Assembly: GCF_015999335.1 (NCBI RefSeq)
Contig: NZ_JAEACP010000008.1
Span: 62,001 to 126,000, forward strand
Direction: 5' to 3'
Length of the DNA: 64,000 bases
Source: Tabrizicola soli
Lineage (GTDB): Bacteria; Pseudomonadota; Alphaproteobacteria; Rhodobacterales; Rhodobacteraceae
Under the pieces are notes generated by a model that did not search any database, was not told the origin of the DNA, and saw only the letters and a program-made list of their open reading frames with translations. The position numbers and the translations under genes are program-made. Each line of letters starts with the position of its first letter. Position 1 is the first letter of the stretch. Shown here piece after piece: positions 13,979 through 31,533 of this stretch.

Positions 13979-14953
13979 TCAACCGGCAGCTCCCCGGGAA
14001 TGTTCCCCAAGCCCCGGCAGGACGCTGGAACCGAAGGCCTCGATGAAGGTGCGCTGGTTGCGGGTAACGCAGTGCAGATGAACCGTATCGGCCAAGGCGC
14101 AGAGCGCGGCGATCCTTTCGGCGTGCCAGCCCAGATCCGCGGATACGTCGATCCGCCGACACAGTGCCTCGGGCGTCACCAGCTCCGCGATCAGGTCGAA
14201 ATCGGCGGGGCGGCGCAGATCCCAGGCGACTTCGCCGCCCGCGATGGAAGGGGCCCATTGGTCCATCGCCCCGGCCAGAGCGCCGGCCTCGGTACGGCCC
14301 CAGGCCAGGGCGTGCTGGACATGCACGGGCTTGCCCTCGCCGCCGCCCGCACGGAACGCCTCGATCACCCGCGAGAGAAGCGCCGGATCGCCCCCCACGG
14401 TCAGAAGCCCGTCCGCCCATCCCGCGACCTCGGCCGCGGTGTCGGGCGATACCGCCGCACCGAACAACGGGATCGGCACCCTTGGGCGCGAGTAGAGCCG
14501 CGCCTCGACCAGGGTGATCCTGCCACGATGGGTTACGGTCTCGCCGCCAAGGAGAGCCCGGATGACCTCCACGCACTCCCGCAGCCTGGCGTTGCGCTCG
14601 GCCTTGTCGGGCCAGTATTGGCCCAGGATCGCCTCGTTGATCGCCTCGCCACTGCCAAGGGCCAGCCAGAAACGGCCTGGAAACATCTCTCCAAGCGTGG
14701 CCGCCCCTTGGGCGATTATGGCCGGGTGATAGCGCCAACCGGGGACGGAGATCAGACCAATGGGAAAGCGCGTCGCCTGCAGGGCCGCACCGATCCAGGA
14801 CCATGCGAACCCGGACTGGCCCTGCCGCTCGCTCCAGGGGTGGAAATGGTCCGAGGATTTCGCAGTCGCAAAGCCCGCGGATTCGGCCAGGCGGACCAGT
14901 TCCAGAAGCTCTCCCGGCCCGAATTGCTCGTGCGAGGCGTGATAGCCGATCAT
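13979..14953 (-). CDS. LLM-class flavin-dependent oxidoreductase
   Basis: A 324-residue luciferase-like monooxygenase family protein (TIM-barrel, FMN or F420 type). Motifs include GYHASHEQFGPGELLELVRLAE at the N-terminus, SSDHFHPW, RFWLALGSGEAINE and the PIPLFGAAVSPDTA segment that lines the flavin site in this subfamily. The substrate cannot be read from the sequence. It starts within the stop of a 52-residue upstream ORF (ATGA overlap), and both probably use the EcfG-type promoter at 15138-15162. Confidence 0.85.
   Translation of the reverse strand: MIGYHASHEQFGPGELLELVRLAESAGFATAKSSDHFHPWSERQGQSGFAWSWIGAALQATRFPIGLISVPGWRYHPAIIAQGAATLGEMFPGRFWLALGSGEAINEAILGQYWPDKAERNARLRECVEVIRALLGGETVTHRGRITLVEARLYSRPRVPIPLFGAAVSPDTAAEVAGWADGLLTVGGDPALLSRVIEAFRAGGGEGKPVHVQHALAWGRTEAGALAGAMDQWAPSIAGGEVAWDLRRPADFDLIAELVTPEALCRRIDVSADLGWHAERIAALCALADTVHLHCVTRNQRTFIEAFGSSVLPGLGEHSRGAAG
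13981..14006 (-). promoter_or_regulatory. EcfG-type promoter for DUF3008 gene
   Basis: On the minus strand GGAAC is followed by 17 bases and GGTT, 30 bases before the DUF3008 ATG. It lies over the last codons of the upstream LLM oxidoreductase gene, so the DUF3008 gene has a private promoter. Confidence 0.65.
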
Positions 14954-15108
14954 TCCCGCCCCTGATCGGGATCGGGCACCTGCCTTGCCGGGTTCACCCG
15001 GTCAAATTCCTCGGACCGATGGGGCGAGCCTTCCTGGTCGCCCGCCGCATTGCTCCGGTCCTGCGGCGGGGTGCGCTTGGCGGCGGCGGGTTTCGGTTCG
15101 TTGGGCAT
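14950..15108 (-). CDS. Small hydrophilic protein, 52 aa
   Basis: A 52-residue ORF rich in Pro, Glu, Asp and Arg with no hydrophobic core (MPNEPKPAAAKRTPPQDRSN at the start), so probably disordered. Support for it being real comes from a strong GGAGGAG ribosome site about eight bases before the ATG, a four-base ATGA overlap with the LLM oxidoreductase start, and an EcfG-type promoter (GGAAC-N16-AGTT) 30 bases upstream. I do not recognise a family; function unknown. Confidence 0.6.
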   Translation of the reverse strand: MPNEPKPAAAKRTPPQDRSNAAGDQEGSPHRSEEFDRVNPARQVPDPDQGRE

Positions 15109-15137
15109 CGGGACCTCTCCTCCGGCGGGACCGCGTC

Positions 15138-15162
15138 AACTGCTGCTAGGCAGGAAGGTTCC
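15138..15162 (-). promoter_or_regulatory. EcfG-type promoter for small ORF-LLM operon
   Basis: Minus-strand GGAAC-N16-AGTT ending 30 bases before the ATG of the 52-residue ORF. It is divergent from the plus-strand site at 15177; the two -35 boxes are 14 bases apart. Confidence 0.65.
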
Positions 15163-15176
15163 CGGCGGCGACGGCT

Positions 15177-15201
15177 GGAACATTGCCGATCCGGGCGGGT
15201 T
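15177..15201 (+). promoter_or_regulatory. EcfG-type promoter for 24-aa membrane peptide
   Basis: GGAAC-N16-GGTT, ending 27 bases before the microprotein ATG. It forms a back-to-back pair with the minus-strand site at 15138-15162. Confidence 0.68.
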
Positions 15202-15228
15202 CAGCCGGGCAGAAACCGGGAGAGTGCC

Positions 15229-15303
15229 ATGAACCGCATCATCTACCTTGTCGGCCTGGTCGTCATCGTCCTGATCATCCTGTCCGTCCTCGGATTGCGC
15301 TAA
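15229..15303 (+). CDS. Single-span membrane microprotein, 24 aa
   Basis: A 24-residue peptide that is almost entirely one membrane helix (residues 4-22, IIYLVGLVVIVLIILSVLG) with a basic residue at each end. I recall very similar short peptides being annotated in other Rhodobacterales, but function is unknown. An EcfG-type promoter (GGAAC-N16-GGTT, 15177-15201) lies 28 bases before the ATG, with a GGGAGAG ribosome site. The last 29 bases overlap the 3' end of the convergent alkyladenine glycosylase gene. Confidence 0.7.
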   Translation: MNRIIYLVGLVVIVLIILSVLGLR

Positions 15304-15844
15304 GCGCGGGAAACGGCCGGCTGATCCCGGCGGCTCCGGCAAGGCCGAAGCGCCAGGGCAGGTCGGTGGCGCGGCTGATGCCGATGCGGGGACCTTCGAG
15401 AAACGGCAGGGGCCCGGCAGCGGGCAAAAGCACGAAACCGTCCGCGCCGAACCTCTTGCCGCTGTCACGTAGCTCCAGCCCCAATGCCTGCCCCAGCCGC
15501 CCCGGCCCCGAGGCCAGCCTGGGACTGTCCGGCGGCAGGCCGCGCCGCCGCGCCATCTCCTCGACCCCGACCTCGGGGCAAAGCGCGCGCAGAAGCACCG
15601 CCTCGCCGGGCCGTCCGACGACGTTCAGGCAAAGGTGGCATCCGTAGGACAGGTAGACATAGACCGTGCCCGGCGGACCGAACATGGCCGCATTGCGCAA
15701 GGTCGGGCCACGGAAGCTGTGCGAGGCGGGGTCGTCGCGGCCATAGGCCTCGGTCTCGAGGACCGTCCCGCCGGCGCCGCGCACGACCAGCCTTGCGCCA
15801 AGAAGGGTACGGGCAAGCGTCACGACATCCTGGTCAAAGTCCAT
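15275..15844 (-). CDS. 3-methyladenine DNA glycosylase (AAG type)
   Basis: A 189-residue alkyladenine DNA glycosylase of the AAG/MPG family, which excises alkylated purines and starts base excision repair. The active-site strand ETEAYGRDDPASHSFRG is clear, followed by RNAAMFGPPGTVYVYLSYG and LNVVGRPGEAVLLRAL. The start was placed at MDFDQDVVTLARTLLG, which fits the family's N-terminus and has GGGGGCGAG directly upstream; an ATG nine codons earlier is possible. A base-repair function suits the surrounding stress genes. Confidence 0.9.
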   Translation of the reverse strand: MDFDQDVVTLARTLLGARLVVRGAGGTVLETEAYGRDDPASHSFRGPTLRNAAMFGPPGTVYVYLSYGCHLCLNVVGRPGEAVLLRALCPEVGVEEMARRRGLPPDSPRLASGPGRLGQALGLELRDSGKRFGADGFVLLPAAGPLPFLEGPRIGISRATDLPWRFGLAGAAGISRPFPALSAIRGRTG

Positions 15845-15857
15845 CTCGCCCCCGATG

Positions 15858-15882
15858 GGAACTGCGGCCATCCGGCCGGGTT
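15858..15882 (+). promoter_or_regulatory. EcfG-type promoter for 84-aa protein
   Basis: GGAAC-N16-GGTT, ending 28 bases before the ATG at 15911. It overlaps the 5' leader of the divergent alkyladenine glycosylase gene. Confidence 0.6.
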
Positions 15883-15910
15883 TGCCCTGCACATGCCCCG
15901 GAGAACCGCC

Positions 15911-16165
15911 ATGGACAACCCCGACCCGCACCCGTCCGTCGCGCTGGAGGGCCGGTTGCTGGCCCACCGCCGCCTGCTGGTGCTGCTGCTGCAATCCCTG
16001 CCCGCCGCCCGACAGGCAGAACTGGCCGAATGGCTGGCCGACCGCTCGATTCCCCGCGACGGGCAGGAGGATCCCGGCGCGGTGCCGTCCGAGGCCGGCG
16101 CCATCGACCTGGCGCTGACCGATGAATTCCGCCTCCTGGCCGAGATGCTGTCACAGTCTAGTTGA
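15911..16165 (+). CDS. Hypothetical protein, 84 aa
   Basis: An 84-residue, Leu- and Arg-rich, probably helical protein (LEGRLLAHRRLLVLLLQSLP in the first half, acidic second half). I do not recognise a family. An EcfG-type promoter (GGAAC-N16-GGTT, 15858-15882) lies 29 bases upstream of the ATG. It converges on the response regulator gene and overlaps its end by eight bases. Position beside a regulator could mean a partner, but nothing in the sequence proves that. Confidence 0.6.
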   Translation: MDNPDPHPSVALEGRLLAHRRLLVLLLQSLPAARQAELAEWLADRSIPRDGQEDPGAVPSEAGAIDLALTDEFRLLAEMLSQSS

Positions 16166-16724
16166 GCAGGTGATGCGCCCGCGCCTCCAGCGCCCGCGCC
16201 ATCAGTTGATGCAGCCAGCCCGCCAGCGTGGTGCCGGAGAGATCCATCTCCTCCTCCAGCGCCAGCTTGAGGGTCGCCTCGACCAGGCGGTCGGCGGCCA
16301 GCGAATCGGGGACCAGGAGCCGGGCCGAGACGCGAAGACGGGGCAGGACCTGGTCCACGGTGGTCTCCTGCCCGTCCAGCTCGGCCCGGGCAAGGCTGAC
16401 AGCCTCGTCGGGTGAACAGGGCTTGCCCAGCCGCGCCACATCGGCGAAGCGGGCCGGGATCTCGGCCATGTCGCGGCCGGAGTAGAACACGAAGGGAATC
16501 CGCGCCCGCTGCAGCCTATCGGCAAGGCGAAAGACCTGCTCGCCGCGCAGATTTACGTCCAGGACCGCCAGATCGGCGCCAAAGGCATGGCATTCCGCCG
16601 CATCCAGCGTGGCGTAGGGGCCAAGGATGCTTGCCTCGGCGCTGCGGAAATGGTCCGCCAGCATCCAGGCGACGAGGTAATCATCTTCCACGATCAGAAT
16701 GCGTTTGCCGGCGAGTTGCTGCAT
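16158..16724 (-). CDS. Response regulator: receiver plus sigma region 2-like domain
   Basis: A 188-residue regulator. Residues 6-110 form a complete receiver: acidic pair D14/D15, phospho-acceptor D56 (LAVLDVNLRG), S82 (FYSGRD) and K101 (LGKP). Residues 123-188 align by eye with sigma region 2 of the EcfG-like sigma factor at 26798. The match is gap-free over 33 residues with about 13 identities, including LPxLR, DxLVxxTL and GT...WL. There is no region 4 or DNA-binding domain. Classical PhyR has the sigma-like part first and the receiver second; here the order is reversed. I infer a PhyR-like anti-anti-sigma role. The start at MQQLAG has an AGGAAGGAA site upstream. Confidence 0.8.
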   Translation of the reverse strand: MQQLAGKRILIVEDDYLVAWMLADHFRSAEASILGPYATLDAAECHAFGADLAVLDVNLRGEQVFRLADRLQRARIPFVFYSGRDMAEIPARFADVARLGKPCSPDEAVSLARAELDGQETTVDQVLPRLRVSARLLVPDSLAADRLVEATLKLALEEEMDLSGTTLAGWLHQLMARALEARAHHLLN

Positions 16725-16901
16725 GTGGCCCGTTCCTTCCTGCCTCTGGCCAGAGTCGCTGACCACCGCAGATCCGGACAGCCCGAAACCTGATCAAGAC
16801 TATGGGGTCCGCCCTCCTCTCCCGCAAGGCGAGTGGCAGGCCCAACGCTTTCCTTGCGGCTCCTGGGCGGGATCCGGCCGATCGGGGCCGGAAAGGTTCC
16901 G

Positions 16902-16926
16902 GGAACAACCTGGCGGCCGCGCGGTT
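16902..16926 (+). promoter_or_regulatory. EcfG-type promoter for katE-treZ
   Basis: GGAAC-N16-GGTT, ending 44 bases before the katE ATG. A catalase and a trehalose enzyme are typical general-stress targets, which supports the site. Confidence 0.72.
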
Positions 16927-16970
16927 GCCTCCCGGCCGCAACCGTCCCATCACAGCCGAAGGAGTCCGCC

Positions 16971-19091
<2,121 letters not shown>

Positions 19092-19093
19092 AC

Positions 19094-20917
19094 GTGGCGC
19101 AAATTCCGGCACATCCGGATGCGCAACCGCCGGACATGCCCGCCGCCCCGTTCTGGGGCGCGCGGCGCTCCGCTCCGGATGAGTGGAGCCTTGCGCTCTG
19201 GGCGCCGTCGGCCAGCGCGATCCGGCTGGAACTGGAGGGGCTGGACTTGCCGATGGTCCGGGGTGCGGACGGTGTGCATCGCTGTATCGCCCGCGCCTCG
19301 GAAGGCGGGCTCTACCGCTTTCGCGCCGGGGATTTCCGCTTTGCCGATCCGGCCTCGCTGCAGCAGGAGGGCGGGGTCGAAGGCCATTCGGTCCTGCGCG
19401 ATCTTGCGCCCATGACCCGGCGCGCGCAGCGCGCAGCCCCCGGCCCCTTTGCCCGTCAGGTGATTACCGAGATCCATGTCGGCAGCTTCACCCGCGAGGG
19501 CAGCTTTGCCGCCGCCGCCCGCACGCCCGAGTTGCGCCGGATGGCCGCGCTGGGCATCACCGCCATCGAGTTGATGCCGCTCGGACAGTTCCCCGGCACG
19601 CGCGGCTGGGGCTATGACAGCGTGCTGCCCTATGCCCCGCAGGACAGCTATGGCCCGCCGGAGGATCTGGCCGCCCTGGTGGATGCCGCGCATCGGCTGG
19701 GTCTGCTGGTCTATCTGGACGTGGTGCTGAACCACTTCGGTCCGCAGGGAAATGCGCTGGCCCGGATCTGCCCGGAATTCTTCCTGGCCGAGGAGAACGA
19801 CTGGGGACCCCGGATCGACTATTCCCGCCCCGCCGCCCGGGCCTTCTTCGTCGACTGCGCCCGGCACTGGCTGCGGCACTACCACTTCGACGGGCTGCGC
19901 ATCGACGCAATCCAGGAGATGAAGGACGACAGCGCCCTGCCGATCGAGACCGAACTGGCCCTGGCCCTGCGGCGCGAGTTTCCCGAGGTGCATCTGCTGG
20001 CCGAGGACAGCCGGAACCGCACCGCTCCCTATGATCCGGCGAACCGGCTGTATGACGCGGCCTGGAACGACGACTATCACCATGCGCTGCATGTCCATCT
20101 GACCGGGGAAAGCTTCGGCTATTACCGCGAGTTCACGCTGCAGCCCTTGCGGGATCTTTCGGTGGCGCTACGCGACGGGCAGGCGCTGCAGGGCCAGACC
20201 CGCCCCGATGGCAGCACCGCCAAGGGCGAGCCCTCCGCCCATCTGCCGCCATCCCGTTTCATCAATTTCAATCTCAACCACGACCATGCCGGCAACCGTC
20301 CCAGGGGCGAGCGGCTGGTTTCGCTGGTCGGGGTGGAGCGGGCGCAGGTCGCCCATGCGCTTCTCCTCACCGCGCCCTATGTGCCGCTGCTTTTCATGGG
20401 CGAGGAATGCGGCGCGCAAAGCGCCTTTCCCTGGTTCGCCGACTATGCGGGCCAGGTGGCCGCGGACATGGCGGAGGAACGGCGCAAGCAGTTCCGCGGG
20501 CTGCCGGGCGGCGGGCTGGACATGCTCGACCCGTTCGATCCGGCGACCGCGACGCTGGCGCATCCCTATGCCAGACCCGCTCCGGACCAGGAGTCCTGGC
20601 TGGACCTCACACGGCGGATGCTGGAGTTGCGGCGCCAGGTGCTGCTGCCGATCTATCGCACTGGCCGGGCCCACCCCGCGACGGTGGTGATCACCGGCCC
20701 GGGGGCGTTGGTCGCCGACTGGCATTTCCGCACAGGCACGGTGCGGGCGGCGCTGTCCTTCCAGCCGACAAGCGCCTCGGCCCCGGATCGGACCGCGCCC
20801 GAGGGCAGGACCGCCCTGCCCCTCGCCGCCCTGGGCGAGGCCGGGACGCCCTGGTTCCGGCTCTGGCTCTCGCGGCCTACAGCTCCTGCTCCTGCACCGA
20901 GGCCATCGGCGCAGTAA
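19094..20917 (+). CDS. treZ: Malto-oligosyltrehalose trehalohydrolase TreZ
   Basis: A 607-residue GH13 enzyme that releases trehalose from maltooligosyl-trehalose. An N-terminal beta-sandwich (about 20-100) precedes the barrel. Catalytic motifs are DVVLNHFGPQGN, the nucleophile strand HFDGLRIDAI, the acid/base in LLAEDSRN and the FNLNHDHAGNR segment. It starts at GTG two bases after katE, so both probably share the EcfG-type promoter. The partner TreY is not in the window. Trehalose is a common general-stress protectant. The 3' end overlaps the convergent kinase gene by 41 bases. Confidence 0.92.
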   Translation: MAQIPAHPDAQPPDMPAAPFWGARRSAPDEWSLALWAPSASAIRLELEGLDLPMVRGADGVHRCIARASEGGLYRFRAGDFRFADPASLQQEGGVEGHSVLRDLAPMTRRAQRAAPGPFARQVITEIHVGSFTREGSFAAAARTPELRRMAALGITAIELMPLGQFPGTRGWGYDSVLPYAPQDSYGPPEDLAALVDAAHRLGLLVYLDVVLNHFGPQGNALARICPEFFLAEENDWGPRIDYSRPAARAFFVDCARHWLRHYHFDGLRIDAIQEMKDDSALPIETELALALRREFPEVHLLAEDSRNRTAPYDPANRLYDAAWNDDYHHALHVHLTGESFGYYREFTLQPLRDLSVALRDGQALQGQTRPDGSTAKGEPSAHLPPSRFINFNLNHDHAGNRPRGERLVSLVGVERAQVAHALLLTAPYVPLLFMGEECGAQSAFPWFADYAGQVAADMAEERRKQFRGLPGGGLDMLDPFDPATATLAHPYARPAPDQESWLDLTRRMLELRRQVLLPIYRTGRAHPATVVITGPGALVADWHFRTGTVRAALSFQPTSASAPDRTAPEGRTALPLAALGEAGTPWFRLWLSRPTAPAPAPRPSAQ

Positions 20918-22214
20918 GGTCGCAGATCACACCCTCCTCGGCATGGATGAGCCGGACCCTGCCCTGCAGTTCGGCCGCCAGGACGTCCTGGATCACCACG
21001 GTGCCGAAACCCTTCCGCTGGGGCGGGGCCACGGCTGGCCCGCCTTCCTCGCGCCAGTGCAGCACGAATTCGGCCGGCGGCCCCGCCGTCACCGCCCAGC
21101 GGATCCGCACGCAGCCGGACCTGACCGAAAGTGCGCCGTATTTCACCGCATTGGTCGCCAGCTCGTGCAGCCCCAGCGCCAACGCCACCGCCGCGCGCGA
21201 GGATACCCGGACCGGCGGTCCCTCGAAGCGGAACTGCGACTGTGGGAACGGGGCCAGGACCGAGGCGACAACCCCCTGCAGGTCGACCCCTTCGCTGGCA
21301 TCGCGGGTGATCAGGTCCTGCGCCCGTCCCAGGGCGAGGATCCGCTTCTCGAAGGTGACATAGGCCTCGGTCCGCTCGCTCCCCATGGTCTGCCGCGCGA
21401 TGGCCTGCACGGTCGACAGGACATTCTTCACCCGATGCTTCATCTCGCCGATCAGGACCTTTTGCAGCCGCTCCAGATCGTGACTGGCCGAGCTGTCGCG
21501 CGCGATGACGGCCGCCCCGGTGATCTGCCCCGCCCGATCCCGGATCGGCGAGACCGCCAGCGAGACATGCAACCGCTTGCCATCCTTGCGCAGCCACAGC
21601 GTCTGGCGCGTAGCGACCCGCTCGCCGTGCAGGATCAGGTCGAGGGTGGCCCGGTCCTCGTCGGGATGCGGCGAGAGGAGCGTGACCGGATGACCCAGCA
21701 CCTCCTCGGCGGCATGGCCGAACAGCCTCCGCGCGCCGCCGTTCCAGCTGGTGATCCGCAGGTGCCGGTCCACCGACAGGACCGCATCCTCGGCGCCGGC
21801 GATGATCGCGGCAGCGCAAGCGGCATCCTGAGGTTCGGAAGAGGCGATCAGCAGGATCAGCACCCCCTGCGCCTGTCCCGCCTCATCCAGCACCGGCCAA
21901 AGCGCGGCAGCCGGCGCCTTGTCGCATGGCACAAGCAGAGACCGCGCGGCGGGGTGGTCCAGGACATCCTGCGCGGCCGCACGCAGCATCTCCGGCAGAT
22001 CGGCCGCCTGCCGCCCTGTCAGCCGGGCCCAGGCCTCGTTGCCCAGGATCACGCCATCCGGGCCGGTGACCATAACCATCGGTGCGATAGCCGCCTGCAC
22101 AAGGGAGGACGCCTGGCGCAGGCACAAGGGCAGTCCCTCCATCCGGCCCGACATGCTGTTCGGCTGATCCATCCCCTGCATCAACTGCCGGACATCCGGT
22201 TCCCTGTCGCTCAC
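20877..22214 (-). CDS. PAS-HWE sensor histidine kinase
   Basis: A soluble kinase of about 445 residues with no membrane span. Two PAS-like segments (about residues 30-130 and 145-255; the second has SWNGGARRLFGHAAEEVLGHP) precede an HWE/HisKA_2 kinase core. The H box is GEMKHRVKNVLSTVQAIARQ, the N box HELATNAVKYGALS, and a WREEGGP motif gives the class its name. Kinases of this class feed PhyR in the general stress response. The frame extends to 22286, but an EcfG-type promoter at 22273-22297 overlaps that end. I therefore prefer the GTG at 22214 (VSDREPDV); the exact start is uncertain. Confidence 0.85.
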   Translation of the reverse strand: MSDREPDVRQLMQGMDQPNSMSGRMEGLPLCLRQASSLVQAAIAPMVMVTGPDGVILGNEAWARLTGRQAADLPEMLRAAAQDVLDHPAARSLLVPCDKAPAAALWPVLDEAGQAQGVLILLIASSEPQDAACAAAIIAGAEDAVLSVDRHLRITSWNGGARRLFGHAAEEVLGHPVTLLSPHPDEDRATLDLILHGERVATRQTLWLRKDGKRLHVSLAVSPIRDRAGQITGAAVIARDSSASHDLERLQKVLIGEMKHRVKNVLSTVQAIARQTMGSERTEAYVTFEKRILALGRAQDLITRDASEGVDLQGVVASVLAPFPQSQFRFEGPPVRVSSRAAVALALGLHELATNAVKYGALSVRSGCVRIRWAVTAGPPAEFVLHWREEGGPAVAPPQRKGFGTVVIQDVLAAELQGRVRLIHAEEGVICDLTAPMASVQEQEL

Positions 22215-22272
22215 CCCATGCCCCCGGAACTCCTCCAGTCTGGGCAGCCGCAGATTCGCCCATCTCCACGGC

Positions 22273-22297
22273 AACACGCAGGTCACGGATTTGTTCC
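22273..22297 (-). promoter_or_regulatory. EcfG-type promoter for HWE kinase
   Basis: Minus-strand GGAAC-N16-TGTT. It overlaps the first codons of the longest possible kinase frame (22286), implying that translation starts downstream. It would place the kinase under its own pathway's control. Confidence 0.6.
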
Positions 22298-22321
22298 GCC
22301 GGCTTCGGAACCCGGCGAAGA

Positions 22322-22498
22322 TCAGCCTTTCCGGACTTTTCCTGCGCGGTTCAGCGCCTCCTGCAACTGGCGGCTCAGGTCGCGCAACCTTTCGCTGACG
22401 GGCTGAGTGCGGATCTCCTCGATTATTGCTTCCAGCGCGGCCGAAAACTCGTCGTCCAGAAGGGTTTCGGGCCCTTCGCCTTCATTCGTCTGCTTCAT
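22322..22498 (-). CDS. nepR: NepR-like anti-sigma factor
   Basis: A 58-residue helical protein. The stretch FSAALEAIIEEIRTQPVSER followed by LRDLSRQLQEAL resembles the two-helix core of NepR anti-sigma factors, in which a first helix is followed by a [EQ]PVP-[DE]R-[FL] turn and an LLxQL helix. NepR binds EcfG and releases it when PhyR is phosphorylated. The start at MKQTNEGEG is chosen because the region upstream looks non-coding. It lies between the HWE kinase and stress genes, and the sigma factor is 4.3 kb away. The call is by pattern and context; moderate certainty. Confidence 0.65.
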   Translation of the reverse strand: MKQTNEGEGPETLLDDEFSAALEAIIEEIRTQPVSERLRDLSRQLQEALNRAGKVRKG

Positions 22499-22605
22499 TT
22501 CCGCCGCCCGGGACCCGGTCCAAACACCACTTTCGTCATGACTATACGCCGAAGTGACGCAATGGATCACGGCAAATTTGCCGCAGCCCGGCCCGTCGCG
22601 ACCGG

Positions 22606-22631
22606 GGAACAATCGCCGCCCCCGACCTGTT
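22606..22631 (+). promoter_or_regulatory. EcfG-type promoter for repeat protein-DUF892 unit
   Basis: GGAAC-N17-TGTT, followed after 28 bases by a strong ribosome site and the 45-residue ORF, then the Asp/Arg repeat protein gene. Confidence 0.6.
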
Positions 22632-22658
22632 CACCTCGTCCGACGAAGGAGGTGCTGC

Positions 22659-22796
22659 ATGGCCCAAGCGCCGCTTCTGGAACGGCTCAGGGCCGAGGGC
22701 TCCAGGCCCGAACCTGGGAAGGCAGTTCGCTGCCTGCAAGACCGTGTAGGACGCGACTCCCCTGCGCACGACAGCCGCGCTTGCGGCAACCCATGA
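22659..22796 (+). CDS. Possible small protein, 45 aa
   Basis: A 45-residue ORF (MAQAPLLERLRAEG at the start) with two Cys and many Arg. Its ATG follows a near-perfect GAAGGAGG ribosome site, 28 bases after an EcfG-type promoter (22606-22631). No family is recognised and composition is not distinctive, so it may instead be part of the leader of the repeat protein gene that begins 17 bases downstream. Confidence 0.35.
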   Translation: MAQAPLLERLRAEGSRPEPGKAVRCLQDRVGRDSPAHDSRACGNP

Positions 22797-22813
22797 CAAC
22801 CGAGGAGGATAGA

Positions 22814-23680
22814 ATGCCAAGAAATTCCAACACCCCCGAACGAGACGACCGCGGCCGTTTCATCGGTGACGATGACCGCGGCGGCAGCCGGGGCCGCAGT
22901 TTTGGCCGCTATGACGACGACGATCGCCGCTATTCGCGCAGCCGCCGCGACGATGACGACAGTGACCGCGGCCAGGGCTGGTACGGTGACAGCCGGGGCC
23001 ATTCCGAAGCCTCGCGCCTTGGGTGGGAGCGCCGCGGCGCCTATGACGACCGCGATGGCCGCAGCTCGCGCGGCAGCGACCGCGAACGTGACGAATACGG
23101 TCGCTTCGTAAGCGACGATGATTACCACCGCTCGTCGCGCGGCGGCAGCAGCCGGGGCAGCGGCAATGACCGCGAGCGTGACGAATACGGCCGCTTCATG
23201 AGTGACGATGACGACCGCCGCTCCTCCTCGCGCGGCAATGGTGGCCGGGGCCGGAGCAGCGACAATGACCGCGGGCGCGATGAATACGGCCGTTTCATGA
23301 GTGATGACGACGACCGTCGCTCCTCCTCCTCGCACGGACGCGGCGATGACCGGGGGCAGGGTGGCTGGTTCGGCGACCGCGAAGGCCATGCCGAGGCCGC
23401 CCGTCGCGGCTGGGAACGCCGGGACGACGACGACCACCGTTCCTACTCCTCTTCGCGCAGCAGCGGGGGCCGGGGCAGCAATGACCGCGAGCGCGACGCA
23501 TACGGCCGCTTCATGAGCGACGACGACGACGACCGTCGCTCCTCCTCGCGCGGACGCGGCGATGACCGGGGGCAGGGTGGCTGGTTCGGCGACCGCGAAG
23601 GCCATGCCGAGGCCGCCCGTCGCGGCTGGGAGAATCGTGATGACGACGACCGTCGCGGATCGCGTTTCTCGCGCCGTTGA
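22814..23680 (+). CDS. Repeat-rich, highly charged stress protein
   Basis: A 288-residue protein made almost wholly of Asp, Arg, Ser and Gly, so very probably disordered. Two motifs repeat. One is R-D-[ED]-Y-G-R-F-[MV]-S-D-D-D, about five copies starting with a variant at residues 9-21. The other is GQGGWFGDREGHAEAARRGW, with a diverged first copy near residue 53 and identical copies near residues 178 and 250. The second motif resembles the short KGG-like repeats of bacterial general stress proteins. Two in-frame 80-base DNA segments are identical, indicating recent duplication. An EcfG-type promoter lies about 180 bases upstream; GAGGAGG is the ribosome site. Confidence 0.75.
   Translation: MPRNSNTPERDDRGRFIGDDDRGGSRGRSFGRYDDDDRRYSRSRRDDDDSDRGQGWYGDSRGHSEASRLGWERRGAYDDRDGRSSRGSDRERDEYGRFVSDDDYHRSSRGGSSRGSGNDRERDEYGRFMSDDDDRRSSSRGNGGRGRSSDNDRGRDEYGRFMSDDDDRRSSSSHGRGDDRGQGGWFGDREGHAEAARRGWERRDDDDHRSYSSSRSSGGRGSNDRERDAYGRFMSDDDDDRRSSSRGRGDDRGQGGWFGDREGHAEAARRGWENRDDDDRRGSRFSRR
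23336..23631 (+). repeat. Identical 80-base direct repeats inside the Asp/Arg repeat gene
   Basis: Bases 23336-23415 and 23552-23631 are identical over 80 bases by eye. Their offset is 216 bases (72 codons), so both stay in frame and encode the GQGGWFGDREGHAEAARRGW motif. Sequence identity at silent positions points to a recent duplication or gene conversion. Confidence 0.85.
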
Positions 23681-23694
23681 CCCCAGCCCGACGT

Positions 23695-23720
23695 CCGGGC
23701 CGCCATCCGTGGCGGCCCGG
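23695..23720 (+). terminator. Hairpin between repeat protein and DUF892 genes
   Basis: Eleven-base perfect GC stem with a four-base TCCG loop, 14 bases after the repeat protein stop. The following TCTTGA is only weakly T-rich, so partial termination or mRNA end protection is likely. Confidence 0.45.
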
Positions 23721-23744
23721 TCTTGATCCTGAAAGGAGCAGGCG

Positions 23745-24251
23745 ATGGAACGGATGCGGGAAAGTTACCTGAGCTGGCTGCGCGACGCCCATGCGATGGA
23801 GGGCCAGGCCCTCACCATGATGCAGGGCATGGTCAACCGGCTGGAACACTACCCGGAACTGCGCGATCGGATCCGGGCGCATATCAAGGAGACCGAGGGT
23901 CAGGAGGCCGAACTCGCCCGGTTGCTGGAAATCCACGACTCCTCCGCCTCGATGGTAAAGGATGCCCTGGGCAAACTTGCTGCCGTCGGGCAGGCGGTCA
24001 GCGGGATGTTCGCCTCGGACGAGGTGGTGAAGGGTACGCTGGCCAGCTACACCTTCGAACACATGGAGATCGCCTCGTACCGGATCCTGATCGCGGCGGC
24101 GGGAGAGCTGGGCGAGACCGCTGCCGTCGAGGTCTTCCGCCGCTGCCTGGCCGAGGAGGAGGCGATGGCGGACTGGCTGGCGAACCACAGCAGCGAGATC
24201 ACACGCCAGTTCCTTGCCCGCGTGGCAGCGGACCGGAGCGCAAGCCGTTGA
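23745..24251 (+). CDS. DUF892 ferritin-like (YciE/YciF type) protein
   Basis: A 168-residue four-helix protein of the DUF892 family. Landmarks are YLSWLRDAHAMEGQALTMM, the HIKETEGQEAELARLLE helix and the late FEHMEIASYRIL and CLAEEEAMADWL helices, which place acidic and His residues where ferritin-like proteins bind metal. Family members accumulate in stationary phase or under osmotic stress; the exact role is unclear. It lies 64 bases after the repeat protein on the same strand and probably shares its promoter. A strong terminator follows. Confidence 0.82.
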   Translation: MERMRESYLSWLRDAHAMEGQALTMMQGMVNRLEHYPELRDRIRAHIKETEGQEAELARLLEIHDSSASMVKDALGKLAAVGQAVSGMFASDEVVKGTLASYTFEHMEIASYRILIAAAGELGETAAVEVFRRCLAEEEAMADWLANHSSEITRQFLARVAADRSASR

Positions 24252-24271
24252 ACCCGGCGGCAAGACAGAAG

Positions 24272-24303
24272 AAGGGCCCGGCAGCCAGTGCCGGGCCCTT
24301 TGT
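24272..24303. terminator. Bidirectional intrinsic terminator
   Basis: Twelve-base perfect stem (AAGGGCCCGGCA with its complement) and five-base loop between the convergent DUF892 and TDGAA-repeat genes. T-rich bases follow on both strands. Confidence 0.8.
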
Positions 24304-24316
24304 CGTCGCTTCGGCG

Positions 24317-24640
24317 TCAGGGCGTCGTCGCCGGAGGGGCGGTCTCGGGCGCGCCCGTACCTTCGGGCGCAGCGCCGTCGGTTGCCGTCCCGTCGGTCGC
24401 AGCGCCGTCGGTCGCCGCGCCATCGGTGGCGGCACCGTCCGTCGCGGGCGCAGCCGGCGACTCGGCCGGGATGATCGCCGGGTCGGGTTCGGTCCGGTCG
24501 AAGCTGAAGGCCAGGATCGCGATGATGATCGCAGCCAGCACGGCCAGCACCAGCCACATGCCGGTCTGGCGGCTGCGCGGGGCCGGGACGCGGCGGCCGT
24601 CGACCGGGCGCGTGCCCTCAGGGGGCGGTGGATTGTGCAT
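24317..24640 (-). CDS. Single-span membrane protein with TDGAA repeats
   Basis: A 107-residue protein: a proline-rich cytoplasmic start, one membrane span (about residues 28-47, LVLAVLAAIIIAILAF), then a periplasmic tail of repeated TDGAA units (about residues 66-90) ending in Thr/Pro. No family is recognised. An EcfG-type promoter (GGAAC-N16-GGTT, 24678-24702) lies 38 bases upstream and AAAGGA is the ribosome site. The tail composition resembles that of the PRC-barrel protein at 31924, another island member. Confidence 0.7.
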   Translation of the reverse strand: MHNPPPPEGTRPVDGRRVPAPRSRQTGMWLVLAVLAAIIIAILAFSFDRTEPDPAIIPAESPAAPATDGAATDGAATDGAATDGTATDGAAPEGTGAPETAPPATTP

Positions 24641-24677
24641 CGGGTGTCCTTTCGATTTCGGGACGTCAGGCCCCGAC

Positions 24678-24702
24678 AACCCGCGAGTTGCGCCGATGTT
24701 CC
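24678..24702 (-). promoter_or_regulatory. EcfG-type promoter for TDGAA-repeat membrane protein
   Basis: Minus-strand GGAAC-N16-GGTT, ending 38 bases before the ATG at 24640. Confidence 0.65.
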
Positions 24703-24716
24703 GCCCCCGTCCGCCC

Positions 24717-25574
24717 CTACAGCATGGGTCCGCCGCCCGTGACCGCGATGGTCGCGCCCGAAACATAGCTCGACATCGGTTCGGCCAGCATGACATAGGC
24801 GGTGGCCAGCTCGACCGGCTGGGCCGGGCGCTTCATCGGATAGTCCTCACCGAAATGCGCCACCTTCTCCGGCTCCATCGACGAGGGGATCAGCGGCGTC
24901 CAGACCGGACCGGGCGCGACACAGTTCACCCGGATCCCCCGCTCGGCCAGAAGCTGCGCCAGACCCACGGTAAAGTTCTGGATCGCCCCCTTCGTCGTGG
25001 CATAGGCCAGCAGCGAGGGATTCGGCTTGTCGGCATTGATCGAGGTCGTGTTGATGATCGAGCTGCCCTGCCCCATATGCGGCAGCGCCGCCCGGACCAG
25101 GTGGAAGATCGCGTCGATGTTGATGGCGAAGGTCTTGTCCCATTCCTCCGGCGTCAGATCTTCCAGCGTCTCGATCACGCTCTGGTGCGCGGCATTGTTG
25201 ACCAGGATGTCGATCCGGCCCCATTCCTCCGCCACCCGGTCAACGATCTTGCGGCAGGCATCGGGATCGGACAGGTCGGCGGCAAGCTTGAGGCAACTCT
25301 GCCCCGCCGCCTCGACCACGCGGGCGGTGTCGGCGGCGTCCTCGGTCTCGCTCAGGTAGCACAGCGCGACATCGGCCCCCTCGCGGGCATAGGCGATGGC
25401 CACCGCACGGCCGATGCCGCTGTCCGCCCCTGTGATCAGCGCGACGCGGCCCTGCAGCCGCCCCGCCCCGCGCCACGAGGTTTCGCCATGGTCGGGGCGG
25501 GGCTGCATCGGGATGAAGCTGCCGGGCGGTTCCTGGCTTTGCGGCGGAAACGGGGGTTTCGGATGCTCGGTCAT
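24717..25574 (-). CDS. Short-chain dehydrogenase/reductase (YghA-like)
   Basis: A 285-residue NAD(P)-dependent oxidoreductase of the classical SDR superfamily. The cofactor motif is TGADSGIGRAVA, the structural NNAA motif is present (ILVNNAAHQS), and the catalytic Ser...Tyr-x-x-x-Lys is in NTTSINADK and YATTKGA. The extended N-terminal segment with a PQSQEPPGSFIPMQPRPDHGE-like tail is typical of the YghA-like branch, often linked to stress. Its ATG overlaps the stop of the preceding 56-residue ORF (ATGA). Substrate unknown. Confidence 0.88.
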   Translation of the reverse strand: MTEHPKPPFPPQSQEPPGSFIPMQPRPDHGETSWRGAGRLQGRVALITGADSGIGRAVAIAYAREGADVALCYLSETEDAADTARVVEAAGQSCLKLAADLSDPDACRKIVDRVAEEWGRIDILVNNAAHQSVIETLEDLTPEEWDKTFAINIDAIFHLVRAALPHMGQGSSIINTTSINADKPNPSLLAYATTKGAIQNFTVGLAQLLAERGIRVNCVAPGPVWTPLIPSSMEPEKVAHFGEDYPMKRPAQPVELATAYVMLAEPMSSYVSGATIAVTGGGPML

Positions 25575-25741
25575 CGCCCGCCCTCCCGGTCGACCGAGCC
25601 GCCGGGCTGCTTGCTGTTGGCATCGGGTCGCACGTCCGGGTCCACGCGGAAATGGCCGGCCGGGTCGATCTGCTGCTGGCGCTGGTCGATCACTCCGGGC
25701 TTCGGGTGGCGCAGTTCCTCGTTCTTGGGAAGGTCCGTCAT
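25571..25741 (-). CDS. Small hydrophilic protein, 56 aa
   Basis: A 56-residue, Pro/Asp/Gln-rich, probably disordered protein (TDLPKNEELRHPKPGVIDQR near the start). It overlaps the SDR start by four bases, and its own promoter is a canonical EcfG-type site with CGTT (25776-25801), 35 bases upstream. The arrangement mirrors the 52-residue ORF that precedes the LLM oxidoreductase: a small disordered protein translationally coupled to an oxidoreductase. Function unknown. Confidence 0.65.
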   Translation of the reverse strand: MTDLPKNEELRHPKPGVIDQRQQQIDPAGHFRVDPDVRPDANSKQPGGSVDREGGR

Positions 25742-25775
25742 GGTCAGGCATCCTCTGGCAGGGAATCCTGCGTCC

Positions 25776-25801
25776 AACGCCAGGCCCCTCGCCTTTGTTC
25801 C
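25776..25801 (-). promoter_or_regulatory. EcfG-type promoter for small ORF-SDR operon
   Basis: Minus-strand GGAAC-N17-CGTT, the canonical form of the EcfG consensus, 35 bases before the ATG at 25741. It is divergent from the DUF2934 promoter with -35 boxes 17 bases apart. Confidence 0.7.
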
Positions 25802-25818
25802 CAGGGGGAACGGCGGCC

Positions 25819-25843
25819 GGAACATTCCTGCAGCCTCGCGGTT
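25819..25843 (+). promoter_or_regulatory. EcfG-type promoter for DUF2934 gene
   Basis: GGAAC-N16-GGTT, ending 30 bases before the ATG at 25874. Pairs back to back with the site at 25776-25801. Confidence 0.68.
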
Positions 25844-25873
25844 GCCCCCGGTCGATGTGAACGGAGGGATCAG

Positions 25874-26095
25874 ATGACGCAGAACCAGGAAGCCCGCATC
25901 CGGCAGCGCGCCTACGAAATCTGGCAGGAGGAGGGCGCACCCCCGGGCCGGGCCGAAGCGAACTGGCTGCGCGCCGAGAGCGAGCTGTTGCGCGAGGCCG
26001 TCGACCCGGTCTGGCAGGGCGAGGACAGCGCAAGCATGGCCGCAACCCCGGAGGGACCGGCCACCACTCCCTCCGGCCGCCGCCGACGCCGCTGA
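25874..26095 (+). CDS. DUF2934 family protein
   Basis: A 73-residue protein whose first half matches DUF2934: RIRQRAYEIWQEEGAPPGRA followed by NWLRAESEL. The rest is low complexity and ends in a run of Arg. Function is unknown. It has its own EcfG-type promoter (GGAAC-N16-GGTT, 25819-25843), divergent from that of the SDR operon, and GGAGGGA as ribosome site. A second DUF2934 protein is at 33400. Confidence 0.8.
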   Translation: MTQNQEARIRQRAYEIWQEEGAPPGRAEANWLRAESELLREAVDPVWQGEDSASMAATPEGPATTPSGRRRRR

Positions 26096-26141
26096 TATAG
26101 TCGTGCCAGATGAAATCGGGCACAATGGAATCGCTCACGAA

Positions 26142-26172
26142 AACGGCCCCGCGCAGGACGCGCGGGGCCGTT
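26142..26172. terminator. Bidirectional intrinsic terminator
   Basis: Thirteen-base stem (AACGGCCCCGCGC with its complement) and five-base loop between the convergent DUF2934 and yciE-like genes. A TTTT run follows on the minus strand and T-rich sequence on plus. Confidence 0.8.
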
Positions 26173-26223
26173 CCCCTTCTTACCTGTCCGGGGGGAGCGC
26201 CCGGACAGGCGGAAGACCGGGTG

Positions 26224-26718
26224 TCAGGCCGCCAGCGCAGCCTGGTTGACGGACTTTTCCGCCACCTTGGTCAGCGCCTCGTCGGTCGCGCCTTCCTCCT
26301 GCAGGGTGGACTCCAGCAGGCGGGCAGCGTCGCCCATGTCCAGAAGCTGGGCCCAGCGGCAGAGCGTGCCATAGCGCGCAATCTCGTAATGCTCGACCGC
26401 CTGCGCCGCGGCGATCAGGCCTGCGTCCACTGCCGGGCTGCCGGCAAAGGATTCAATCACTTCCTCACCCTCCTCGATCAGCCCGTCGATCGCCGGACAG
26501 GTCTTGCCGCGCGCGGGCTTCCCCATCAGTTCGAACACCTGCTGCAGGCGTTCGACATGCATCTGGGTCTCGTCGTGGTGCTTCTCGAACGCCGCCTTCA
26601 GGTCGGGCGACTGGGCCGCGCGGCCCATCTTGGGCAGGGCCCGCAGGATCTTGCGCTCGGCGTAGTAGATGTCCTTCAGCGTGTCGTGAAACAGGGTCTC
26701 GAGGTTCTGGGTCTTCAT
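26224..26718 (-). CDS. DUF892 ferritin-like (YciE) protein
   Basis: A 164-residue DUF892 protein with the YciE signature: ETLFHDTLKDIYYAERKILR, ALPKMGRAAQSPDLKAAFEK and HHDETQMHVERLQQVFELMG, then the acidic DGLIEEGEEVIE. The helices place Glu and His as in ferritin-like diiron proteins. The start at MKTQNLETLF follows AAGGAG; upstream codons lie in the promoter. An EcfG-type promoter (GGAAC-N16-GGTT, 26759-26783) precedes it. It is the second DUF892 gene of the island and much closer to typical YciE than the one at 23745. Confidence 0.9.
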   Translation of the reverse strand: MKTQNLETLFHDTLKDIYYAERKILRALPKMGRAAQSPDLKAAFEKHHDETQMHVERLQQVFELMGKPARGKTCPAIDGLIEEGEEVIESFAGSPAVDAGLIAAAQAVEHYEIARYGTLCRWAQLLDMGDAARLLESTLQEEGATDEALTKVAEKSVNQAALAA

Positions 26719-26758
26719 GGTCGTCTCCTTGCATGCGGGACAGCGGATCGGTGCAGGC

Positions 26759-26783
26759 AACCGGCAGGCGGTGGAATTGTTCC
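26759..26783 (-). promoter_or_regulatory. EcfG-type promoter for yciE-like gene
   Basis: Minus-strand GGAAC-N16-GGTT, ending 40 bases before the ATG at 26718. It lies between the DUF892 gene and the sigma factor stop. Confidence 0.7.
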
Positions 26784-26797
26784 CCATCCGGCGCGGC

Positions 26798-27271
26798 CTA
26801 GACCTCCTCTCCCAGCGCCGTGCGCAGCTGGCGGCGGCCGCGGTTGATCCGGCTCTTGATCGTGCCGATGTCGCAGCCCAGGATCTCGGCCGCCGAGAGG
26901 TAGCTTTCCCCGGTCACCAGCACCAGGACGATGGCCTCGCGGTAGGGCTGCGGCAGGTCCAGAAGGGCCGCTTCCACCTCCTTGCCGCGCATGTGCCAGT
27001 ATTGCACCGGCTGGCTCACCGGCACCGAGGAAGCACAATCCTCGGCCGCCGGGCGTTCGCGCGAGAGCTTGACGCACTGGCTGTAGAAGCGGTTGCGCAT
27101 GATGGTGAAAAGCCAGGCCCGCATGTTGGTTCCGGGAGTATAGGACTCCACCTTCTCGATCGCGCGCAGCAGCGTGTCCTGCACCAGGTCGTCCGGGTCG
27201 CCGGTCCGGCCGCAGAGGGACCGTGCAAACAGACGCAGCGCGGGGATGTAACTCAGGATGTCGTCCGACAT
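26798..27271 (-). CDS. ecfG: EcfG-like extracytoplasmic-function sigma factor
   Basis: A 157-residue sigma-70 family protein with only regions 2 and 4. Region 2 (about residues 6-70) has YIPALRLFARSLCG, DDLVQDTLLRAIEK and MRAWLFTIMRNRFY. Region 4 (about 100-155) has LLDLPQPYREAIVLV and the helix-turn-helix SAAEILGCDIGTIKSRINRG. Size and sequence fit the EcfG general-stress sigma factor. The start at MSDDIL is 11 bases after GGAAGG. A candidate promoter (GGAAC-N16-CATT, 27335-27359) with one mismatch could allow autoregulation. NepR-like and PhyR-like partners lie in the same island. Confidence 0.85.
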   Translation of the reverse strand: MSDDILSYIPALRLFARSLCGRTGDPDDLVQDTLLRAIEKVESYTPGTNMRAWLFTIMRNRFYSQCVKLSRERPAAEDCASSVPVSQPVQYWHMRGKEVEAALLDLPQPYREAIVLVLVTGESYLSAAEILGCDIGTIKSRINRGRRQLRTALGEEV

Positions 27272-27334
27272 GAAGATATTGCCTTCCGGTTTTCTCCCCG
27301 GCGCGAGGGCCCGGGGCAGCCCACCCGCAAAGGC

Positions 27335-27359
27335 AATGCACATGCCCGGCGCCAGTTCC
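27335..27359 (-). promoter_or_regulatory. Candidate autoregulatory promoter of ecfG-like gene
   Basis: Minus-strand GGAAC-N16-CATT, one mismatch from the -10 consensus, 63 bases before the sigma factor ATG. EcfG genes are often autoregulated, but this site is weaker than the others. Confidence 0.35.
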
Positions 27360-27439
27360 GCACCGCCGTGGACCATTTCCCGCCGCAGGCGAATGCCCGC
27401 CGACCGTCCCCGCGTGAATCCCGGCGGCATCGCGGCGGC

Positions 27440-27465
27440 GGAACCCCCTGGCCCCTCCCGCCGTT
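27440..27465 (+). promoter_or_regulatory. EcfG-type promoter for ku-ligD
   Basis: GGAAC-N17-CGTT, canonical form, ending 27 bases before the ku ATG. It would put end-joining repair under general stress control. Confidence 0.7.
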
Positions 27466-27492
27466 TCCGCAGGACAGCCACGGGAGGGCGGC

Positions 27493-28314
27493 ATGGCTCC
27501 GCGCGCGAACTGGAAGGGCCGGATGGTGGTGGGCGAGGTCGGCTGCGGCGTCGGGCTTTACACCGCCGCCTCCACCTCGGACCGCATCGCCTTTCACACC
27601 ATCAACCGGGCCACCGGCAACCGTGTCCAGCGCCGTTTTGTCGACAGCGAGACCGGAAAACCCGTCCCGCGCGAGGACGAGGTGAAAGGCTACGAGGTCG
27701 ATGAAGGCGATTATGTCCTGCTCGAGGACGAGGACCTGGCCGGCGCCATCCCCGAAAGCGACAAGGTGCTGCGGCTGGACCGCTTCATCGACTGCGACGA
27801 TGTGGACACGCTGTTCTTCGACCGCCCCTATTACCTTGCCCCCAGCGATCCCGCCTCGGTCGAGGTCTTCGCGCTGATCCGCGCGGGGATGGAGGCCCGC
27901 AGCGTCGCCGCTCTGGCGCGGACCGTGCTTTTCCGCCGGGTGCGAACACTGCTGATCCGGCCGCAGGGCCTGGGGCTGGTGGCCAGCACGCTGCAATTCG
28001 AGCATGAGGTGAAATCCCCGGCCGAGGTCTTCGACGAGATTCCGAAGCTGAAGCTCGAAGGCGAAATGCTCGACCTTGCCGCGCATATCATCCGGACCAA
28101 GACCGGCCGCTTCGACCCGGCCGAATTCGACGACCGTTACGAATCCGCCCTGGCCGAGCTGGTGAAGGCCAAGCTGGAAGGCCGCAAGATCGCCCCGCGC
28201 AAGACGAAGCGTCCGGAAAAGGTCGTGGACCTCCTGACCGCGTTGCGCGAAAGCGTCGGGGGCGGCGATGGCAAAAAGGCGCAGAAACCGGCACCGCGCC
28301 GGAAGGCGGGCTGA
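27493..28314 (+). CDS. ku: Ku protein (first copy)
   Basis: A 273-residue bacterial Ku homodimer subunit that binds double-strand DNA ends and recruits LigD for non-homologous end joining. Typical segments are FHTINRATGNRVQ, KGYEVDEGDYVLLEDEDL and FFDRPYYLAPSD, followed by a Lys/Arg-rich C-terminal tail. Unlike most Ku proteins its first strand reads MVVGEVGCGVGLYTA rather than the usual LSFGLVxIPVxLY, a divergent start. An EcfG-type promoter (GGAAC-N17-CGTT) ends 28 bases before the ATG. ligD starts two bases after the stop. Confidence 0.92.
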   Translation: MAPRANWKGRMVVGEVGCGVGLYTAASTSDRIAFHTINRATGNRVQRRFVDSETGKPVPREDEVKGYEVDEGDYVLLEDEDLAGAIPESDKVLRLDRFIDCDDVDTLFFDRPYYLAPSDPASVEVFALIRAGMEARSVAALARTVLFRRVRTLLIRPQGLGLVASTLQFEHEVKSPAEVFDEIPKLKLEGEMLDLAAHIIRTKTGRFDPAEFDDRYESALAELVKAKLEGRKIAPRKTKRPEKVVDLLTALRESVGGGDGKKAQKPAPRRKAG

Positions 28315-28315
28315 G

Positions 28316-30742: not shown

Positions 30743-31533
30743 CCGCCCTTCTCGGCCGCGATGCTGCGCCTCAGTGCATCCATGATGCTGACCACATTGT
30801 CCGGCTTCTGCGGCGCAGCAGCTTTCCGCTTCTGCGTCTTTCGCCCCTTCCGCTTGGCTTCGATGATCTCCACCAGCCGGTCCTGCACCGGATCGACGAC
30901 GAAGCCCGGCGACCAGTCCGCCTTGCGCGTGTCGATCAGCTTCTCGACCAGCTTCAGCAGCTCCTTGTCCACCGGGGCCTTCTCCAGCCGCGCGAAATAC
31001 TCCGCCTCCGGCCGCACCTCGTCGCCATAGCGCAGCGTCCACAGCACGATCCCCCGCCCCCTCGGCCGCAGCAGCACCGCGCGCTCGCGGCGATACAGCA
31101 CCAGCCGCGCGATCCCGGCCATTCCGGTCTCGGCCATCGCCTCGCGGATCACCGAGAAGGCCTCTTCTCCCACCTTGTCGTTCGGGACCAGGAAATGCGG
31201 CCGGTCATACCAGATCCAGCCGATCGAGCCCTGGGGAACGAAGCGTTCGATGTCGATGGTGCGGGTGCTTTCCAGCGCGACGGCCTCGATCTCCTCGTCC
31301 TCCAGCAGGACATGGTCGTCCTCGCCCCGTGGATAGCCCTTGGCCTCGTCCTCCTCGGCGACCGGCTTGCCGGTTTCCGCATCGACATATTGCTGGACGA
31401 GACGATTGCCCGTCGCGCGGTTGAGCGTATGGAACCGCAGCCTGCCGCCTTCGGTCGTGGCCGGACTCATCGCGACCGGGCAGGTGACCAGCGACAGCTT
31501 GAGATAGCCCTTCCAGAACGTGCGCGGTGCCAT
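30739..31533 (-). CDS. ku: Ku protein (second copy)
   Basis: A 264-residue Ku protein with the standard core: FWKGYLKLSLVTCPVAM, FHTLNRATGNRLVQQYVD, HVLLEDEEIEAVALESTRTI and YDRPHFLVPND, ending in a KRKGRKTQKRK tail. It is only moderately similar to the first Ku; the N-terminal strand is canonical here and divergent there. It has its own EcfG-type promoter (GGAAC-N16-AGTT, 31564-31588) and converges on ligD. Two Ku genes with one LigD are known in some rhizobia, where the copies act under different conditions or as a heterodimer. Confidence 0.93.
   Translation of the reverse strand: MAPRTFWKGYLKLSLVTCPVAMSPATTEGGRLRFHTLNRATGNRLVQQYVDAETGKPVAEEDEAKGYPRGEDDHVLLEDEEIEAVALESTRTIDIERFVPQGSIGWIWYDRPHFLVPNDKVGEEAFSVIREAMAETGMAGIARLVLYRRERAVLLRPRGRGIVLWTLRYGDEVRPEAEYFARLEKAPVDKELLKLVEKLIDTRKADWSPGFVVDPVQDRLVEIIEAKRKGRKTQKRKAAAPQKPDNVVSIMDALRRSIAAEKGG

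Follow-up and report, generated by a model that had tools for sequence, protein, structure and literature searches.

Can a response regulator that carries its two domains in the opposite order to PhyR still act as an anti-anti-sigma switch? The question is raised by a gene on a 64,000-nucleotide stretch of Tabrizicola soli DNA (assembly GCF_015999335.1, contig NZ_JAEACP010000008.1, positions 62,001 to 126,000), hereafter the window. Its product has a receiver domain followed by a domain resembling region 2 of EcfG-type sigma factors, an architecture that we call REC-sigma2. In PhyR the sigma-like domain is N-terminal and the receiver C-terminal according to PMC3892343, PMC8103513, PMC4598750 and PMC12148442, in agreement with what an earlier note on this DNA had said of classical PhyR. 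Judged from sequence comparison and structural modelling, the protein is likely to be a phosphorylation-controlled sigma-factor mimic, PhyR reversed, which would work with a short NepR-like protein (mini-NepR) and a second EcfG-type sigma factor (EcfG2), both encoded in the window.

Regulator architecture and family

The open reading frame (ORF) listing starts the gene at a GTG at 16766, and homologues favour the ATG at 16724. The domain order read by the earlier note, receiver first and a mimic of sigma region 2 second, was borne out (residues 1-120 and 121-188), and the receiver does possess all catalytic residues, namely E13, D14, D56, S82 and K101. The best NCBIfam match was PRK13435 with 33 bits (cut-off 119); the NCBIfam PhyR family gave 22 bits, below its cut-off of 240.

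The C-terminal part had been aligned by eye with region 2 of the EcfG-like sigma factor of the same island, without gaps over 33 residues and with about 13 identities. The exact count is 13 of 33, between regulator residues 127-159 and residues 9-41 of the sigma factor encoded at 26798-27271, and the GT....WL motif reported after this stretch is present. The local alignment score of 65 was above the maximum of 55 obtained in 5000 shuffles, whereas the observed scores were matched by 1 of 5000 shuffles against the genome's canonical EcfG and by 87 of 5000 against its PhyR. Given these outcomes, at the level of plain sequence the match is clear to EcfG2 and marginal to PhyR. Pfam PhyR_sigma2 matched residues 125-166 (E 5.5e-4; 20.4 bits, under the curated cut-off of 27) and, at a loose limit of E 10, was listed for 12 of 13 regulator homologues (best E 2.7e-5). 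Compared profile against profile, 13 C-terminal domains and seven EcfG2 proteins aligned at E 1.2e-11 across 61 columns. In the PDB the C-terminal profile had six sequence matches up to E 1: the EcfG-type sigma factor 5uxx (0.004), SigR 1h3l (0.18) and RT-PhyR 9by5 (0.47), followed by three short receiver matches. Since receivers filled the PDB list of the full-length model, the C-terminal domain was modelled in isolation (pLDDT, the predicted local distance difference score, 88.3), and its best 16 structure matches were all sigma factors or PhyR. The structure prediction proposed in the earlier note as a check thus gave a fold like that of sigma region 2, and the domain is predicted to mimic EcfG by this fold.

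For conservation, 25 REC-sigma2 proteins were compared, with a duplicate Tistrella record omitted; they had been picked for a sigma-2 domain after the receiver, which all 25 accordingly have. The phospho-acceptor D is found in 24, K101 in 23, and S or T at position 82 in 24. The region-2 tryptophan is present in 21 of the 25. D28 and Q31 of EcfG-type sigma factors (38 and 37 of 39, respectively) lie in what we take to be the RNA-polymerase-binding part of region 2, and in the REC-sigma2 family these places are occupied by R (22/25) and E (24/25). Because of these replacements, the fold apparently is kept and the sigma contact seems to be altered. The last two residues (187-188 in the window protein) form a fairly constant tail, with L in 19 of the 25 and then N in 15. 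One genome (G302) has two diverged copies, L085 and L086, and in L086 the phospho-acceptor D is replaced by E.

All counts of REC-sigma2 occurrence are lower bounds. A match to the regulator at E 1e-5 was found in 9 of 32 Tabrizicola genomes, full length in eight of them. Among named genomes, a close-relative scan with the regulator protein alone gave no match; a profile scan gave 22 loci, two full length (L027, L028) and 20 comprising the receiver part or little more. Sought in other Rhodobacterales, as the earlier note had suggested, the architecture was found in four further genomes with five full-length copies in a Rhodobacteraceae-level scan of 394 genomes with at most eight candidates scored in each. 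A class-level scan with the C-terminal profile matched 129 of 385 genomes at E 0.001, and 29 loci examined from it comprised 26 sigma factors, two REC-sigma2 copies from Tistrella (L103 and L108, same genus code) and one sigma-2-like end without a receiver (L124). At L124 205-1725 and L134 6944-8464 (G438), a long open frame ends in a sigma-2-like domain that has neither receiver nor region 4 and may be a free-standing sigma-2 protein; several hits fall in G438.

Searched with the window protein, a plasmid collection gave 192 matching records, 30 of which spanned at least 80% of the query; with a Tistrella protein as query, 31 of 126 did so. Eleven of the 12 plasmid regions fetched were REC-sigma2, from Martelella, Mesorhizobium, Roseivivax, Ensifer (2), Paracoccus (2), Tistrella, Ketogulonicigenium, Shinella and Sinorhizobium chiapasense. 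Their public names are response regulator, response regulator receiver protein, hypothetical protein and histidine kinase, and in two records the gene table is absent at this place. The label 'histidine kinase' on the Ketogulonicigenium vulgare protein (L177 5914-6564) is likely a misannotation.

The NepR-like protein and the stress island

The earlier note had proposed a NepR-like protein at 22322 as the partner of the regulator. Relatives of this small protein are encoded near 23 of the 25 regulators, the window copy included, in flanks of mostly 6-10 kb per side and less at contig ends. Nine copies were found by phmmer with the window copy (E 1e-33 to 0.007) and fourteen further ones by profiles built from the first nine (E 1.4e-4 to 1e-11). 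Among the 32 Tabrizicola genomes, those with mini-NepR at E 3e-9 or better are precisely the eight that have the full-length regulator; the same search, taken to E 0.1, listed 20 of the 32, with the further matches at 3.7e-4 or worse. Both synteny and identical occurrence support the proposed partnership. In one genome (G082) a NepR-like ORF (L169, G082:C4:1326382) adjoins an EcfG2-like sigma gene distant from the REC-sigma2 gene.

An ORF does exist at this place. Pfam NepR does not recognise the window copy; it was listed for one of nine homologues, at E 0.062. The kinship is carried by weak matches that recur. The mini-NepR profile recovered two canonical loci (E 3.7e-4 and 0.03), each adjoining a canonical EcfG, and a widened profile, run against a small set of ORFs from 14 canonical PhyR loci, matched one at 12 of them (E 2e-4 to 0.6). 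In the PDB, NepR 3t0y_B ranked fourth (E 0.12); ahead of it were two chains of p47, an unrelated protein, and one further chain. Like NepR, mini-NepR is short and probably helical and has, by eye, the core E-x-[VI]-P-[DE]-RL-x-x-L, and we take it to be a diverged NepR. Unlike NepR, it falls below Pfam recognition, and in some relatives (Ensifer, Tistrella) the motif is clear in its second half only; in our view, such a half-motif protein would fit a partner without region 4.

The sigma factor at 26798 is assigned by sequence to EcfG/ECF15: it has regions 2 and 4 and is close to canonical EcfG, a profile of its group matching the canonical EcfG of the genome with E 1.3e-38, and Pfam PhyR_sigma2 matches it with 51 bits. 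The EcfG2 subgroup (E <1e-80) is found in the eight regulator-bearing Tabrizicola genomes and in G018, a 70% complete genome. Kinases like that of the window lie near many REC-sigma2 copies, with HRxxN in the window kinase and in all eight others checked; HRxxN kinases are the ones named for the general stress pathway in PMC8103513.

The window has 13 sites of the form GGAAC-N16/17-(C/G)GTT, compared with 0.9 expected and at most three in any of 40 simulations. By eye, several stand just before catalase, DUF892 ferritin-like and Ku genes, and others are within ORFs and are followed by no obvious start. Since all 13 matches of the window fall within 13981-33680, this part is likely a general-stress island beside flagellar genes; by eye, it includes genes for catalase and for ferritin-like, Ku and LigD-like proteins. 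The sites cannot show which sigma factor acts, since canonical and second EcfG may share a promoter type. Also within this part, at 22538-23680, an ORF of repetitive sequence has a high content of D, R, S and G and recurring E-A-A-R-R-G-W motifs, presumably resembling GsiB/KGG-type repeats of the general stress response.

Table 1. Features of the regulator and its surroundings (window coordinates)
Feature	Position	Strand	Remarks
REC-sigma2 response regulator, 188 aa	16158..16724	-	ATG at 16724, stop at 16158
Receiver domain	16365..16724	-	residues 1-120, phospho-acceptor D56
Sigma region-2-like domain	16158..16364	-	residues 121-188 plus stop codon; three-helix domain lacking region 4
NepR-like small protein (mini-NepR), 58 aa	22322..22498	-	proposed anti-sigma partner
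Second EcfG-type sigma factor (EcfG2)	26798..27271	-	regions 2 and 4
HWE-type histidine kinase (by eye)	20877..22286	-	HRVKN motif; proposed phosphodonor; start codon uncertain
EcfG-type promoter match	16902..16926	+	before catalase-like gene (by eye), divergent from regulator
Stretch with all 13 GGAAC-N16/17-(C/G)GTT matches	13981..33680		

In three Tistrella genomes, PhyR_sigma2 over its cut-off finds only two true sigma factors each (one REC-sigma2 protein is matched under the cut-off), and Pfam NepR has no match over its cut-off. In G455, an NCBIfam PhyR search at E 1e-20 found nothing among the 36 of 54 candidates scored. Canonical PhyR and NepR thus seem to be absent from these genomes, within reach of the models. 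In two of the three, REC-sigma2, a NepR-like ORF and an HWE-like kinase stand in a row.

Origin of the fusion

The earlier note had left open whether the protein was independently built or rearranged. A tree was made of 87 receivers, 15 from REC-sigma2 and 13 from PhyR, with the others labelled by ORF length. In the free tree the 15 sit among single-domain and hybrid-kinase receivers, and the 13 PhyR receivers, together with ten others found with the PhyR model, are separated from all 15 by a branch of length 1.03 with 100/98 support. The 15 do not form one group there (3 changes); holding them together gave a tree 8.9 log units better (approximately unbiased (AU) test, p 0.708), so that a single origin of these receivers is allowed. 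In the region 2 tree the 15 domains are one group with 98/98 support, the bootstrap not having settled; its 68 columns do not single out either PhyR or EcfG as nearest.

MrrA and SdrG are FATGUY-type single-domain response regulators, a label that we also assume for the receivers neighbouring REC-sigma2 in the tree; PRK13435, the best NCBIfam match, is presumably linked to the same type. Such regulators stop after the receiver, whereas REC-sigma2 adds a sigma-2 domain. The simplest reading of the sequences is one fusion of a FATGUY-type receiver with a sigma-2 piece. On Rhizobium sp. BG4 plasmid pRPC2 (L179 5794-6966), a single-domain receiver gene is immediately followed by a separate EcfG-type sigma gene; this is a neighbourhood from which the fusion could arise, possibly a pre-fusion state. 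The locus had been considered as a further fusion and, consisting of separate receiver and sigma genes, was left out of the 25.

That REC-sigma2 is instead a rearranged PhyR minus region 4 appears improbable. The region 2 tree does permit a clade with PhyR (AU p 0.467), and forcing the receivers together with those of PhyR, at a cost of 33.7 log units, is not formally rejected (AU p 0.09). The long, well-supported branch of the free receiver tree favours independent construction, however, and so do the profiles: the receiver profile scores far better against single-domain regulators, a set picked by similarity to the REC-sigma2 family, than against PhyR receivers, and the sigma-2 profile scores better against EcfG-type sigma factors than against PhyR.

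Proposed mechanism, alternatives and meaning

With PhyR the protein shares a receiver and a sigma-like domain, the predicted sigma-2 fold, and nearby NepR-like, EcfG and HWE kinase genes, and because of this anatomy it should work like PhyR. It should not, however, be filed as PhyR, because the defining features fail: the order is reversed, with region 2 only at the C-terminus and the receiver, probably of another lineage, at the N-terminus. Sequence and models support the PhyR-like anti-anti-sigma interpretation of the earlier note. In the resting state mini-NepR would hold EcfG2. Phosphorylation of D56 by the nearby HWE/HRxxN kinase would free or reshape the sigma-2 domain, which would capture mini-NepR, and the EcfG2 so released would transcribe the surrounding stress genes; the binding, the phosphorylation, the direction of its effect and the release are what we infer.

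Several observations weigh against this scheme. Canonical NepR embraces sigma-2 and sigma-4 together (PMC4598750), so the affinity of a mimic with sigma-2 alone may be too low, and some Methylobacterium extorquens EcfG and NepR paralogues showed no mutual interaction according to PMC4814048. The kinship of mini-NepR to NepR is weak by sequence, though the weak matches recur; in the window, 5.6 kb separate its gene from that of the regulator, and the flanks fetched for two of the 25 regulators, L086 (12 kb fetched, the contig starting 1.4 kb before the gene) and L089, yielded no NepR-like ORF. For 10 of the 25, the fetched flanks showed no EcfG-type sigma gene, although three of these have one 11-38 kb off on the same contig. 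The phospho-acceptor is missing in one relative and K101 in two. In the scanned Tabrizicola loci, window included, neither the regulator nor the NepR-like gene is preceded by a full EcfG-type promoter match, and near-matches only were found; among relatives' loci, in a scan with no chance control, L085 and L087 have full matches shortly ahead of EcfG2, and L086 and L089 have them ahead of the regulator.

The same partners might be controlled differently, the unphosphorylated protein binding mini-NepR or phosphorylation having no influence, as R. thermophilum RT-PhyR' binds NepR decoupled from phosphorylation (PMC12148442), and the occlusion geometry of PhyR cannot be assumed with the receiver in front. 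The retention of phospho-acceptor (24/25) and lysine (23/25) and the HRxxN kinases close by make such control unlikely. The wiring could also differ, with mini-NepR only titrating REC-sigma2 or PhyR as an anti-anti-anti-sigma factor, or with REC-sigma2 acting on canonical NepR and EcfG1. Two M. extorquens NepR paralogues bind PhyR and none of the EcfG proteins tested (PMC4814048), and the G082 REC-sigma2 gene is about 12 kb from canonical NepR with the NepR-like/EcfG2-like pair elsewhere; yet EcfG2 and mini-NepR co-occur with the regulator in Tabrizicola, often as neighbours, and the three Tistrella genomes have no Pfam NepR match over cut-off, so that we hold this wiring to be rather doubtful. 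Least credible is a C-terminal domain acting as a true sigma fragment on core RNA polymerase or promoter DNA: the modelled region 2 fold and the conserved tryptophan would suit it, but the D28 and Q31 places are replaced near-constantly, region 4 for reading the -35 element is missing, and a NepR-like gene is frequently alongside.

Beyond the reversed PhyR-like mimic itself, it is quite possible, if a little short of probable, that REC-sigma2 represents a plasmid-mobile partner switch that evolved independently and converged on PhyR, joining a FATGUY-type receiver to half a sigma factor, pairing with a shortened NepR, controlling many so-called orphan EcfG paralogues and replacing the canonical PhyR-NepR pair in Tistrella. 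Paralogous general stress loci (R. thermophilum RT-PhyR/RT-PhyR', S. meliloti RsiB1/B2) likewise hold a second copy of the switch components; these are said to be of PhyR type, however, and in the structures of RT-PhyR the receiver follows sigma-2 and sigma-4 (PMC12148442 and PMC8103513). Mext_0132, a sigma-2-only EcfG paralogue, also has region 2 without region 4, and no receiver is mentioned in the part of PMC4814048 consulted. A reversed or sigma-2-only PhyR was not found in the portions of the open-access literature consulted, a scope outside which most subscription journals lie.

The alphaproteobacterial general stress response is described as one switch, PhyR-NepR-EcfG, and extra EcfG copies are common; their wide occurrence 'has not satisfactorily been explained' according to a 2013 paper (PMC3892343). 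The module was also sought next to R. etli EcfG2 on p42f, where the 40 kb fetched contained no REC-sigma2 and no convincing NepR-like ORF; it therefore does not account for that paralogue and is not claimed for all extra copies. A second, differently built switch travelling with an EcfG paralogue would explain part of them, and it would make clear that sigma mimicry is possible with region 2 alone. REC-sigma2 is apparently a separate construction of the PhyR logic, available for comparison.
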